Shown piece by piece: positions 39,099-43,003 of a DNA stretch of 64,000 bases. Position numbers and translations under genes: made by a program. The notes below the pieces were generated by a model, which worked only from the letters and a program-made list of their open reading frames with translations, was not told the origin of the DNA and did no database searches. Each line of letters starts with the position of its first letter. Within the stretch, counting starts at the first letter, position 1. Location: NCBI RefSeq assembly GCF_011751745.2, contig NZ_CP061170.1, forward strand, positions 2,170,001 to 2,234,000, read 5' to 3'. The DNA is from Paramicrobacterium fandaimingii (lineage in GTDB: Bacteria; Actinomycetota; Actinomycetes; Actinomycetales; Microbacteriaceae).

Positions 39099-40139
39099 TT
39101 AACGCTGGGTGGCATCTTCGACCGTGCCGACGAGCTCCTCGATGATGTCTTCGAGAAACAGAACGCCGGTGGGATTTCCGTCGCGGTCGAACGCCTGCGC
39201 AAGGTGCGCTCCCGAGAGGCGCATGCTCGTCAGCGCGTCTTCGAGGTCTGTGCCGTCGTACAGCGATACGAGCTGGCGGATGCGCTTGCCCGGAATCGGC
39301 TCATCGTCGTCTTCCTGCTCCATCGAGCCCCTCAGAACATCCTTCAGATGAATGTACCCCGAGGGGAGCCCGTTATCGTCGACGATCACGTATCGGGAGA
39401 ACCCGCGCTTTGCGATTGCACGCTGGATCTGCGATGGCGTCGCCTCAGACGTCAGCGTCACGAGGTTCTCGAGCGGAATGGCGACGTCGCGCACCTTCTT
39501 GTTCGTGAACTCGAACGCGGCACCGAGTGTGCCGGTCGCGTCCGTCAGCATTCCCTCGCGCTGAGACTGCGACACGATCGTCGCAACCTCCTCAAGCGTG
39601 AACGTCGAGTTCGCCTCGGTCTTCGGCTCGACACCGAACATCTTCAAGACGAGGTTCGCCATTTCGTTCAAGAACCAGATCACCGGCTTGAACACGCGGC
39701 CGATCCACACGAGCGGCCGCGCAAGCAGAAGCACTGCAGTGTCCGGCTTCGAGAACGAGATGTTCTTCGGAACCATTTCGCCGAACACGACGTGCAAATA
39801 TGACACGAGCAGGAGCGTGACGACGAACGAGACGGTGTCGACAACGTCAACGCTCAGCCCCGTGAGACCGAGCGGGCCCGCGAGCAAGTGGTGGATCGCC
39901 GGTTCCGACACGTTAAGAATGAGCAGCGAGCACACGGTGATGCCGAGCTGACTCGTCGCCAGCATAAGCGTTGCGTGCTCCATTGCCCACAGCGCCACCT
40001 TCGCGCTGCGTTTTCCCTTTTCGGCGAGCGGCTCGATCTGCGAGCGGCGCGCCGAAATGACGGCGAACTCCGCGCCGACGAAGAAGGCGTTGCCGAGCAG
40101 CAGCACGACAAGCCAGACGATTCCCAGCCAGTCACTCAT
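39099..40139 (-). CDS. CNNM/CorC-type transporter (DUF21 + CBS pair), short form
   Basis: A 346-residue membrane protein of the HlyC/CorC/CNNM family, now linked to Mg2+ (and Co2+) export. The N-terminal DUF21 domain has about four hydrophobic segments with LLLGNAFFVGAEFAVISARRSQIEPLAE (in parts: GAEFAVISARRSQIE) and TSQLGITVCSL. Two CBS repeats follow (VRDVAIPLENLVTL and GVLFLEDIIEELVGTVEDATQR). It stops after the CBS pair and lacks the C-terminal CorC_HlyC domain present in its upstream paralogue. Its start overlaps that gene's end by 8 nt. The same guaB1-CNNM-CNNM order is known from Mycobacterium tuberculosis (Rv1843c-Rv1841c). Confidence 0.9.
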   Translation of the reverse strand: MSDWLGIVWLVVLLLGNAFFVGAEFAVISARRSQIEPLAEKGKRSAKVALWAMEHATLMLATSQLGITVCSLLILNVSEPAIHHLLAGPLGLTGLSVDVVDTVSFVVTLLLVSYLHVVFGEMVPKNISFSKPDTAVLLLARPLVWIGRVFKPVIWFLNEMANLVLKMFGVEPKTEANSTFTLEEVATIVSQSQREGMLTDATGTLGAAFEFTNKKVRDVAIPLENLVTLTSEATPSQIQRAIAKRGFSRYVIVDDNGLPSGYIHLKDVLRGSMEQEDDDEPIPGKRIRQLVSLYDGTDLEDALTSMRLSGAHLAQAFDRDGNPTGVLFLEDIIEELVGTVEDATQR

Positions 40140-41439
40140 CGGGCTGCTCCTCCCCTCTGGTGAATCGCACTCTGTCGATGCGCCGCCCGTCCATCCTCGT
40201 CACCCGGAGCGTTCCCTCGCTGATCGTTACCTCGTCGCCCACATCGGGCAGTCGACCGAGTTCACTCACGATGTACCCGGCGACGGTCTCGTATGGTCCG
40301 TCTTCCGAGATCTGCACCCCCGTGCGCTCGCGGAGCTCGTCTGGGCGGAGGCTTCCCGAGAAGACGACACCGGATGCTGTCCGCACCACGCCGGCGCGCG
40401 TACGGTCATGCTCGTCCGTCACTTCACCGACGATCTCCTCCACGAGATCTTCCAGCGTTGCAACGCCTGCTGTTCCGCCGTACTCATCGACGACAACGGC
40501 CATCTGGTAGCCGTGCCTCCGCAGCCGCGGGATGAGCGAGTCCAGTCGCATCGTCTCGGGAACGCGCACGATCTCCGATTGCAGCGCCGATACGGGAACG
40601 TCGCTGCGCCGGGACTTCGGCACGGCCACAGCCTGCTTCACGTGGACGAGCCCGACGATGTCATCGATGTCCTCATCGGTCACGGGAAACCGCGAATAGC
40701 CTGTCGCCCGGGTCAGATCGATGACCGACTGGGCAGAGTCGGTGCGGTTCACCGCGTCAACCTGAGGGCGGGGAGTCATGACGTCAGATGCCGTTCGTCC
40801 CGAGAACTGCAGCGTGCGATCAAGAAGCGTCGCCGTGTCGCGTTCGAGCGTGCCCGCCCCCGCGCTGCGGCGCACGAGGCTCGAGAGCTCTTCAGCCGAG
40901 CGTGCTCCGGAAAGCTCTTCCTTCGGCTCAATGCCCATCGCGTGCAGTATCGAGTTGGCGCTGCCGTTCAGCAGCAGCACCGCCGGCTTGAACACGGCAG
41001 TGAAGGCGACTTGGAACGGAACAGCGATCTTCGCCGTCGCTCGCGGAACAGCGAGCGCGAAGTTCTTAGGAACGAGCTCGCCGACGATCATTGACACGAG
41101 CGTTGCAATGCCAACGGCGACGACCGTCGCAATGGGGCGAACGATGGCCTCGGGTGCTCCCCACGCGAGGGCGGGTCCGAGCAGCAGCGAGGTGAAGGCC
41201 GGCTCGAGCGTGTACCCGGTGAGCAGCGTCGTCAGCGTGATTCCGAGCTGCGCACTCGACAGATGCGTCGACGTGACCTTCAACGCGGCGATCGTCATTC
41301 CGAGGCGCGTCTCGCCTCGATCACGGCGAGCCTCAAGGTCAGCGCGGTCCAGATTGACGAGCGCGAATTCGCTTGCGACGAAAAGACCAGTTCCAGCAGT
41401 CAGCACCAGGCCAATGGCGAGCAGGACAAGGTCAGGCAC
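40132..41439 (-). CDS. CNNM/CorC-type transporter (DUF21 + CBS pair + CorC_HlyC domain)
   Basis: A 435-residue membrane protein of the same family as the next gene, probably a Mg2+/Co2+ transporter. The DUF21 domain carries GLFVASEFALVNLDRADLEA and LSSAQLGITLTTLLTGYTLEP (in parts: SAQLGITLTTLL). The CBS pair includes VMTPRPQVDAVN and VVDEYGGTAGVATLEDLVEEIVGE (in parts: YGGTAGVATLEDLVE). The C-terminal CorC_HlyC domain ends with VRFTRGEE. The GTG start at 41439 has a good GGAGG 6 nt upstream, but that site is buried in a perfect hairpin and covered by a leader ORF (see 41432-41506). Confidence 0.92.
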   Translation of the reverse strand: MPDLVLLAIGLVLTAGTGLFVASEFALVNLDRADLEARRDRGETRLGMTIAALKVTSTHLSSAQLGITLTTLLTGYTLEPAFTSLLLGPALAWGAPEAIVRPIATVVAVGIATLVSMIVGELVPKNFALAVPRATAKIAVPFQVAFTAVFKPAVLLLNGSANSILHAMGIEPKEELSGARSAEELSSLVRRSAGAGTLERDTATLLDRTLQFSGRTASDVMTPRPQVDAVNRTDSAQSVIDLTRATGYSRFPVTDEDIDDIVGLVHVKQAVAVPKSRRSDVPVSALQSEIVRVPETMRLDSLIPRLRRHGYQMAVVVDEYGGTAGVATLEDLVEEIVGEVTDEHDRTRAGVVRTASGVVFSGSLRPDELRERTGVQISEDGPYETVAGYIVSELGRLPDVGDEVTISEGTLRVTRMDGRRIDRVRFTRGEEQPDE

Positions 41440-41506
41440 GGGGAGCCTCCTTCAGGAGGCTGGGTCTATGAGAGTCCGATGCGACGGCAGGGGGAGGGTC
41501 GTCCAT
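41432..41506 (-). CDS. Putative Mg2+-responsive leader peptide (24 codons) of the CNNM operon
   Basis: A short ORF, M-D-D-P-P-P-A-V-A-S-D-S-H-R-P-S followed by eight residues, starting 9 nt after the -10 TATACT, so the transcript begins almost at its ATG. It reads through the whole ribosome-binding-site hairpin (41444-41461) and stops with TGA at 41434-41432, inside the second and third codons of the transporter gene. The acidic-proline N-terminus resembles in character the E. coli/Salmonella MgtL leader (M-E-P-D-P-T-P), in which low Mg2+ lets the ribosome fall apart. Translation of this ORF would open the hairpin and could hand ribosomes on to the transporter start. Protein existence is inferred. 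Confidence 0.5.
   Translation of the reverse strand: MDDPPPAVASDSHRPSLLKEAPRA
41444..41461 (-). promoter_or_regulatory. Hairpin sequestering the CNNM ribosome binding site
   Basis: AGCCTCC and GGAGGCT form a perfect 7-bp stem with a TGAA tetraloop. The right arm is the GGAGG Shine-Dalgarno (41450-41446) of the GTG start at 41439. While folded, the site is unavailable; ribosomes translating the leader ORF would melt it. Confidence 0.75.
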
Positions 41507-41515
41507 GATGCGATA

Positions 41516-41521
41516 AGTATA
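41516..41521 (-). promoter_or_regulatory. -10 element of the CNNM operon leader
   Basis: TATACT on the minus strand, 9 nt before the leader-ORF ATG at 41506. No good -35 is seen at 16-18 nt. A transcript from here would have a ~70-nt leader before the transporter GTG. Confidence 0.55.
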
Positions 41522-41566
41522 CGACGCGACGCACGTGCTTTTCCTGTCAGGTCGCCGCGCGCGAAA

Positions 41567-43003
41567 TCACCAGGACACCGGCAAGGCTTTCCCCTCTTCG
41601 TAGCCCGCTGCCGATTGAACGCCGACAATGGCGCGGTCATGAAAGTCAGACACGCTCCGGGCCCCAGCATAGGTGAATGACGACCGCACGCCAGACGTGA
41701 TCATGTCGAGAAGGTCTTCAATCGACGGGCGTTCCGGGTCGAGATAGATCTTCGACGATGAGATTCCTTCGGCGAATAACATCTTGCGGGCGAACTCGTA
41801 TGCGTCGAGCCTGCCGAAACGCTCCTGAACTGCCTTGGTCGACGCCATTCCCCAGCTCTCCTTGTACAGACGCCCGTCTGCGTCTGTACGCAGGTTTCCG
41901 GGGCCCTCGATGGTTCCCGCGAACCACGACCCCACCATGACGCTCGCCGCGCCTGCGGACAGCGCGAGTGCGACGTCGCGCGGGTAGCGAATGCCACCAT
42001 CCGCCCACACATGGGCACCTTGGTCTGCGGCTTCCGCTGCGGTCTCGAGCACGGCGGAGAACTGAGGGCGCCCAACGGCCGTCATCATGCGCGTCGTGCA
42101 CATCGCGCCGGGGCCGACGCCGACCTTGATGATCGAGGCGCCCGCGTCCACGAGGTCGGCAACGCCGACGGCGGTGACGATGTTGCCTGCGACAAGCGGG
42201 ATTCCCAAGCGCAGCTCAGAGACGCTGCGCAGGGCGGAGACCATGCCTTCCTGGTGGCCGTGAGCGGTGTCGACGACGAGAACATCGACGCCGGCCGCGG
42301 CGAGTGCGCGCGCCTTCGACTGAACGTCGCCGTTGATGCCGATGGCTGCGGCGACCGCAAGCCGGCCGTCTGCGTCGACGGCCGGGGAGTACAAGGTCGA
42401 GCGCAGGGCGCTCCTCTGGCTCACTGCGCCCACGAGTTTTCCACGACGCAGAACAGCGGAAAAGCTCAAGTCGGCATCCGCCATGAGGTCGAAAGCCTGT
42501 CTGCCCGTCTCGATGTCGTCGGCGTCAAGGGCTGCCTGCGACCCTCGAAGCAGATCGCCGAGACGAGCATCCGGAAGCGCTGTCCCCAGCCGTTTCGTCG
42601 GGATGCTGCCGGCGTAGTCGTCGCCGTTCATGATCACGATTCCGTGCCCGTCGACGGCCGGAACCTCCGCCAGAACGTCGGCAACCGTGGAGTCGGGGCT
42701 GAACACCGTCGGCGTGTCCCACAGAACAGGCTGGTCTTTTACCCAGCGGATGGCGGAGTCGAGCTCTTGCAGCGGCATGTCCTGCGGCAGCACACCCAAT
42801 CCGCCCCTCCGGGCAAGCGAGACCGCGAGTCGCGGGCCCGTCACCGAGTTCATATTCGACGAGACCAGGGGAATCGTCGCCGGCGTTCCGTCATCGGGAG
42901 CAAGGGAGACGTCGAGACGGCTGACAACATCTGAACGCGAAGGAACGAGGAACACATCCGAGTACGTCAGGTCATGTGCCGGGACTTCACCGATGAATCG
43001 CAT
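41567..43003 (-). CDS. guaB1: GuaB1-type IMP dehydrogenase-related protein (GMP reductase)
   Basis: A 478-residue TIM-barrel enzyme with an inserted CBS pair (about residues 95-205). The catalytic loop is [22 protein letters not shown] with the nucleophilic Cys; upstream are [21 protein letters not shown] and [12 protein letters not shown], and downstream [19 protein letters not shown] (in parts: [10 protein letters not shown]). The sequence after the catalytic loop, [15 protein letters not shown], is that of the actinobacterial GuaB1 group, which in mycobacteria has been shown to reduce GMP to IMP rather than oxidise IMP. TAGCTT (43010-43015) lies 6 nt before the ATG, a leaderless start. Divergent from kgd. 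Confidence 0.9.

Follow-up and report, generated by a model that had tools for sequence, protein, structure and literature searches.

The locus and its target gene

The stretch of DNA analysed here (the window, 64 kb) carries on its minus strand the gene for a transporter of the CNNM/CorC type (40132..41439; GTG start, 435 aa), together with a short open reading frame that runs into the start of this gene. The leader (MDDPPPAVASDSHRPSLLKEAPRA; 41432..41506, minus strand) comprises 24 codons and a stop codon: its ATG (41506-41504) lies 9 nt behind a -10 element, TATACT (41521-41516, minus strand), and its TGA (41434-41432) falls inside codons 2-3 of the CNNM gene. The stop/start overlap (GTGCCTGA, 41432..41439, minus strand) has the geometry of translational coupling, as judged from the sequence and from comparison within the family. 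Codons 2-6 encode Asp-Asp-Pro-Pro-Pro (41489..41503), identified as a conserved core through third-base variation and family comparison, with MDDPP[S/P] being the commonest form of this core in Microbacteriaceae; a second recurring element, His-Arg-Pro, is encoded as CAT AGA CCC (41462..41470) and was recognised through the count of H-x-P and through its codon use. The ribosome site of the transporter is covered by a perfect 7-bp hairpin (41444..41461), in which AGCCTCC (41461-41455) pairs across a TGAA loop with GGAGGCT (41450-41444), the right arm holding the GGAGG Shine-Dalgarno sequence of the CNNM gene (41446..41450); core, second element, hairpin and Shine-Dalgarno sequence all lie on the minus strand. 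Upstream of the leader is guaB1 (43003..41567, minus strand; NCBIfam GMPRedGuaB1). A previous sequence-only reading of the window had described the -10 element, the 9-nt spacing, the 24-codon frame, the hairpin and the stop/start overlap, and these match the sequence letter for letter.

The upstream ORF (uORF) in the window is probably effectively leaderless, with the transcript starting only a few nt from the ATG: a -10 element is placed 6-7 nt ahead of the transcription start, and in 106 of the 125 family uORFs scored in our main set (D1, see below; spacings of 6-11 nt allowed) the distance between it and the start codon is 9 or 10 nt. In the fellow actinobacterium C. glutamicum leaderless mRNAs are abundant (707 of 2,147; PMC3890552, cited, like all papers here, from part of its text), whilst a literature search found no paper with start-site maps for Microbacteriaceae.

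The assignment of the target gene to the CNNM/CorC type, likewise made from the sequence alone, was borne out by the Pfam domains of the 435-aa protein (CNNM, CBS and CorC_HlyC). PaeA, a polyamine exporter, is among the best NCBIfam scores for this protein, all of which are below the cut-off; Mg2+ is a putative substrate, assigned by family membership only. The CNNM relative MpfA is essential at high Mg2+ and acts as an exporter or a regulator of export (PMC6711546). Amongst 80 named loci, a set from which records nearer to the window may be absent, the closest relative is that of Microbacterium sp. MPKO10, with a CNNM protein that is 92% identical. A second CNNM-CBS gene (39099..40139, minus strand; 346 aa, from ORF and Pfam analysis), without a CorC_HlyC match, shares an 8-base overlap with the first (40132-40139): both genes are probably in the same operon, and given this overlap their production may involve a second translational-coupling step.

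Conservation of the leader across Microbacteriaceae

CNNM relatives were found in 5/5 genomes of the genus and 149/150 of the family, as well as in 119/119 and 98/98 genomes of the order and class samples. From a family total of 155 genomes, 152 were scored for leaders, using the upstream DNA of CNNM from 138 genomes (set D1) and from 14 further genomes that are mostly small (the extra set); left out were G018, for lack of a CNNM match, and two genomes with CNNM near contig ends, G025 and G057, both of which have an MDDPP leader. Two additional sets consisted of 15 CNNM genes that are second copies in family genomes, picked among the matches listed (D2), and of the 80 named loci, with species partly repeated from D1 (D3). 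All genome counts are plain tallies that ignore kinship.

Leaders were scored with a test blind to the peptide motif: TANNNT had to lie 6-11 nt before an ATG or GTG, the ORF had to be out of the CNNM frame and, counted from the CNNM start, its stop had to lie between -12 and +24. By this test a leaderless-type uORF that terminates at the CNNM start is present in 134 of 152 family genomes, comprising 125/138 in D1 (98 MDDPP, 12 MD[DEH] and 15 other starts) and 9/14 in the extra set (MDDPP in 0); the second-copy genes examined were positive in 15/15 cases (11 MDDPP) and the named loci in 78/80 (72 MDDPP). When the motif alone was used, [A/G]TG-Asp-Asp-Pro-Pro was present at most 330 nt upstream of CNNM in 104/138 D1 genomes. 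Asp or Glu occupies codon 2 or 3 in 132 of the 134 blind leaders and both codons in 111, compared to ~0.65 expected from body composition, and H-x-P is found in 59.

Inspection by eye revealed an acidic or Asp-Pro-Pro leader start in 8 of the 13 D1 misses (L024, L041, L087, L094, L141, L142, L145 and L164), of which L141 starts with TTG and L142 is fused to CNNM; no leader start was seen by eye in the other five (L125, L154, L157, L167 and L169), nor was such a leader seen in the 5 genomes of the extra set that failed the test. CNNM is hence kept without a visible leader in 10/152 family genomes, 7 of these being 2.4 Mb or less, which indicates that the device is dispensable. In G014 the closest CNNM relative (L125) is without a leader, and the second copy (L173) has MDDPPHHRPVPL.

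The sequence-only reading had suggested aligning this region across relatives, and the ORF frame, the acidic-proline start and the stop/start overlap are indeed kept family-wide (134/152, 132/134 and, as described below, 173/175). An unconserved ORF and start next to a freely varying hairpin, which it had named as evidence against itself, is not what we found: ORF and start have both been retained, the variable element being the hairpin.

Coding character and coupled layout

Among the D1 leaders found by the blind test, the entropy of codons 2-5 is 0.24-0.62 bits at bases 1 and 2, compared to 0.90-1.77 bits at base 3, which points to selection acting on the leader peptide at these codons. Leader length is far from uniform, with 40 different values from 11 to 63 codons among 211 distinct uORFs, a set partly selected by stop position, in which the commonest stop positions are +7 (132), +3 (40) and 0 (18). 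Because of this selection, the frame test was repeated on 175 distinct leaders from D1-D3 chosen by their MDDPP start alone, ignoring the stop: in frame 0 the stop of 173/175 falls between -8 and +12 relative to the CNNM start, compared to 16 and 18 in the shifted frames, and the two exceptions are L024 (longer overlap, +27) and L142 (fusion). Without coupling, it would be difficult to account for bodies that are rich in indels and yet retain a constant end, and comparison of the sequences makes it almost certain that a conserved coding leader is present in a coupled layout with CNNM. Only the short length of the ORF would suggest a chance frame across a mis-annotated gene start; we attach next to no probability to such an artefact and rejected it in view of the family-wide conservation, the specificity for CNNM, the frame test and the acidic codons 2/3.

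The overlap and the frame are the most constant features of the leader, which would also suit an ORF that senses nothing, i.e. a leaderless, constitutive ribosome entry feeding CNNM, with an N-terminus serving initiation or a peptide function such as CNNM binding. In that case, the T-ending codons near the 5' end (see below) could merely keep the start unstructured. However, the needs of initiation would not preserve amino acids whilst leaving third bases free, and beyond the N-terminus the peptide differs in both sequence and length from leader to leader, which would not suit a protein partner: we regard the absence of any sensing as improbable.

Masking of the ribosome site, composition and codon use

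The 7-bp hairpin of the window is present in the minimum-energy and centroid folds, and the overall folding of the region is no better than that of shuffled sequences (z -0.31; 69/200 shuffles at least as stable). Within the genus a stem of 6-7 pairs is kept, with the outer pair lost in L004 and L006; L017 and L019, from one other genus, display a compensating A-T/G-C outer pair, and outside the genus the hairpin varies. Across 209 leaders, pairing of the ribosome site with upstream sequence amounts to 0.67 observed versus 0.65 with the upstream sequence shuffled (68 strong sites: 0.82 versus 0.73; 36 weakest sites: 0.40 versus 0.50). The specific hairpin was rejected as the main conserved element, since it varies and since shuffled upstream sequence masks the site nearly as well in these 209 leaders. 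Thus, the role of conserved switch that the sequence-only reading had given to the hairpin was not supported, with masking arising mostly from the C-rich composition of the uORF.

This composition is distinctive: uORF bodies contain 0.41 C and 0.27 G, compared to 0.34 and 0.32 in CNNM and 0.31 and 0.37 farther upstream (n=209), and such a C-rich, G-poor body is compatible with Rho loading. Codon use differs as well, with CCT making up 30% of Pro codons in uORFs versus 3% in CNNM genes, AGA 14% versus 1% of Arg codons and CAT 57% versus 13% of His codons; codon 4 is CCT in 128/175 leaders. H-x-P is found in 102/211 distinct leaders, with AGA or AAA encoding x in 62/102, and CAT AGA CCC / CAT AAA CCC recurs as a nucleotide sequence built from codons that CNNM genes seldom use. 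We interpret the composition and codons of the leader as selection on the RNA in addition to the peptide, with a 5' start kept free of pairing, generic masking, slow decoding and Rho loading as candidate reasons. An M-box or other Rfam riboswitch was considered and rejected, as no covariance model matched at E up to 1 in the region 41200-41800.

Specificity of the promoter and leader pattern

A combined pattern with a spacing of 10 nt, TANNNT-N10-ATGGAYGAYCCNCC, which misses the leader in the window owing to its 9-nt spacing, afforded 61 matches in 58/150 family genomes. By comparison of coordinates by eye, 59 of these lie just upstream of CNNM on the same strand and the other 2 are contig-end copies of the same CNNM arrangement; the reversed control pattern gave 0 matches in the 150 family genomes. 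In the phylum sample the pattern occurs in 4/396 genomes, three times before CNNM (two Microbacteriaceae and one member of another family of the order); the remaining match, the only one in this sample away from any known CNNM leader, is at G507:C234:14231-14260 (L345). In the window's genome, the looser start pattern ATGGAYGANCCNNCN has 10 matches: inspection by eye of the 45 nt upstream of the 9 non-CNNM matches identified none with a well-placed -10 element and a short ORF, and the open frames at these sites span 52-371 codons, several looking like ABC-ATPase motifs. A whole-genome regulon with MDDPP-like starts was discarded, with no second target seen in this genome.

This specificity bears on the nature of the signal. 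Asp-Pro-Pro is also an EF-P-dependent stall motif, and hence Mg2+ is not the sole possible signal: with the same coupled leader and the same polarity, general translation capacity rather than Mg2+ as such could be sensed at Asp-Pro-Pro, with EF-P or ABC-F activity, prolyl-tRNA supply or ribosome quality as candidate inputs. [DE]PP is found inside the first 14 residues of 112/134 blind leaders and the core persists when moved inward (e.g. MRRSSNSDDPPSS, MDSDPRRPSDPPST and, beyond the family, MSSDARSDQDPPST), the preference for CCT among leader Pro codons is in line with such a sensor, and the ABC-F protein EttA acts on a similar sequence in E. coli (PMC11282234). The restriction of the spacing-10 pattern to CNNM across 150 family genomes would, however, be odd for a sensor of general capacity and natural for a metal sensor, and we judge the former to be rather unlikely.

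Proposed mechanism and its polarity

In the Mg2+-reading mechanism that we favour, the leader peptide would be translated from the extreme 5' end of the CNNM mRNA, with its stop overlapping the CNNM start, and ribosomes completing the leader would melt the masked C-rich region and then re-initiate on CNNM or keep its ribosome site open. The early Asp-Asp-Pro-Pro (followed by Ser/Pro and often by a later His-x-Pro) would be intrinsically ribosome-destabilising or stalling, such that weak ribosomes, most likely at low Mg2+, would detach in the opening codons: the remaining leader would then be naked and the ribosome site masked, Rho might act on the C-rich RNA, and CNNM would be off. At ample Mg2+ the leader would be finished and the exporter made. 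It is likely that leader translation promotes CNNM, and conditional ribosome abortion or stalling is a fairly probable mode of action for D-D-P-P, whilst Mg2+ has about an even chance of being the signal; abortion, polarity and Mg2+ are argued here by analogy to the MgtL, mgtQ and CorC precedents. For the mechanism as a whole, i.e. a coupled leader with abortion at D-D-P-P when translation is weak, read out from Mg2+ and with the exporter on when it is ample, we see the chances as balanced.

A natural fusion bears on the polarity. In G044 (L349) an MDDPPSA start, with TANNNT 10 nt upstream, runs in frame into CNNM (475 codons open), whilst G115 (L190) from the same genus exhibits a separate leader, MDDPPSDRPWTA. 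A destabilising start that is fused to CNNM can only lower CNNM synthesis, which favours the on-when-translated polarity; the fusion was seen in a single genome, where it could stem from an assembly error. The opposite polarity, in which abortion at D-D-P-P leads to an alternative fold that frees the ribosome site and CNNM is ON with weak ribosomes, has a precedent in Salmonella mgtQ, where Asp2/Glu5 promote mgtB translation in this manner (PMC8092293), and since mgtQ runs on this opposite logic polarity cannot be read from sequence alone. Nonetheless, the free variation of leader length and sequence offers little room for a conserved alternative stem-loop, and the fused start in G044 can only switch off: we hold this polarity to be very improbable.

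Related leader peptides and range beyond the family

MgtL, the leader of mgtA in E. coli and Salmonella, is not known to overlap its transporter gene. It resembles the leader described here in being a short ORF before a Mg2+ transport gene with acidic/proline codons 2-5, and its EPDP sequence causes ribosome drop-off at low Mg2+ (PMC11282234); in the window, a short ORF likewise lies directly upstream of a gene connected to Mg2+ transport by family only, with an acidic/proline N-terminus under apparent selection. In contrast, the target of MgtL is an importer, the output goes through Rho-dependent termination and the ON state belongs to low Mg2+ (PMC11282234), whereas the leader in the window is of the leaderless type and overlaps an exporter-type gene. 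mgtQ (Salmonella mgtC-mgtB) is also a tiny acidic ORF upstream of a Mg2+ transporter with a masked ribosome site, but differs in being intergenic, with its own Shine-Dalgarno sequence and 8 codons, in serving an importer and in that abortion promotes downstream translation via alternative stem-loops (PMC8092293).

YoaL-MgpA (YoaE) from Salmonella and E. coli is similar in that the leader overlaps the upstream region of a CorC-family gene, and replacement of the YoaL start codon lowers MgpA translation; in MgpA, however, the membrane part is TerC-like and not CNNM (PMC12421838). The comparable arrangement in our set, a leader stop that lies in or right next to the start of its target gene, is that seen in the 173/175 leaders. 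In Salmonella, high Mg2+ raises corC and, when the pH is neutral or alkaline, also mgpA, and the mechanisms regulating both were still called unclear in 2025 (PMC12421838). CorC (YbeX) itself contains an N-terminal ribosome-destabilising region (PMC12421838, citing Chadani 2021): the G044 fusion has the same layout, while most Microbacteriaceae carry the sequence in a separate leader. The mycobacterial M-box with the uORF Rv1805A is a further case of actinobacterial Mg2+ control involving a uORF (PMC12810186), but comprises a riboswitch aptamer, for which the leader in the window has no Rfam match.

From titles and abstracts of the open-licence PMC literature, no paper on this MDDPP/CNNM leader was recognised; it would belong to the known ribosome-reading leader peptides, its CNNM variant being new. 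The sensing of excess Mg2+ and the control of CNNM/CorC exporters in bacteria are largely open questions, and the presence of the leader in the genomes of more than 100 species, specific to one gene, makes the question directly testable by mutation. If the proposed mechanism is true, Actinobacteria would use ribosome destabilisation to sense a metal, and would do so with the polarity of an exporter. We tentatively extend this to a broader view, whose probability we place a little short of even: leaderless Mg2+-reading leaders (core MDDPP[S/P], often with a later H-x-P) would gate CNNM exporters positively across Microbacteriaceae and their kin, as an exporter-side mirror of MgtL outside enterobacteria in which the ribosome is the metal sensor and the module is portable, either as a coupled uORF or as the transporter N-terminus, and the overlapping CNNM leaders of other actinobacterial families would be variants.

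In many other actinobacterial families, uORFs with other starts were seen by eye to overlap CNNM, with several loci lacking one. Variants of the core beyond Microbacteriaceae are MDDPPSHMPWP in L048 and L050, the aforementioned inward-shifted form in L067, MSSSARVDPDPPSR in L068, MHHDPPSR in L293 and MSTPPDDPPSRR in L299. Leaders of the MKDSDDAGCSSGRPTR type precede CNNM at class-level loci of another actinobacterial family (L291, L292, L298 and L303); these four are alike in reading M-x-x-[ST]-[DE]-[DE]-AGCSSGRPTR..., in having their own Shine-Dalgarno sequence and in a stop that overlaps the CNNM start. In further families, MDG-type leaders are found before CNNM (L294, MDGSQS; L297, MDGYQS; L300, MDGPQS; L312, MDGSSC).
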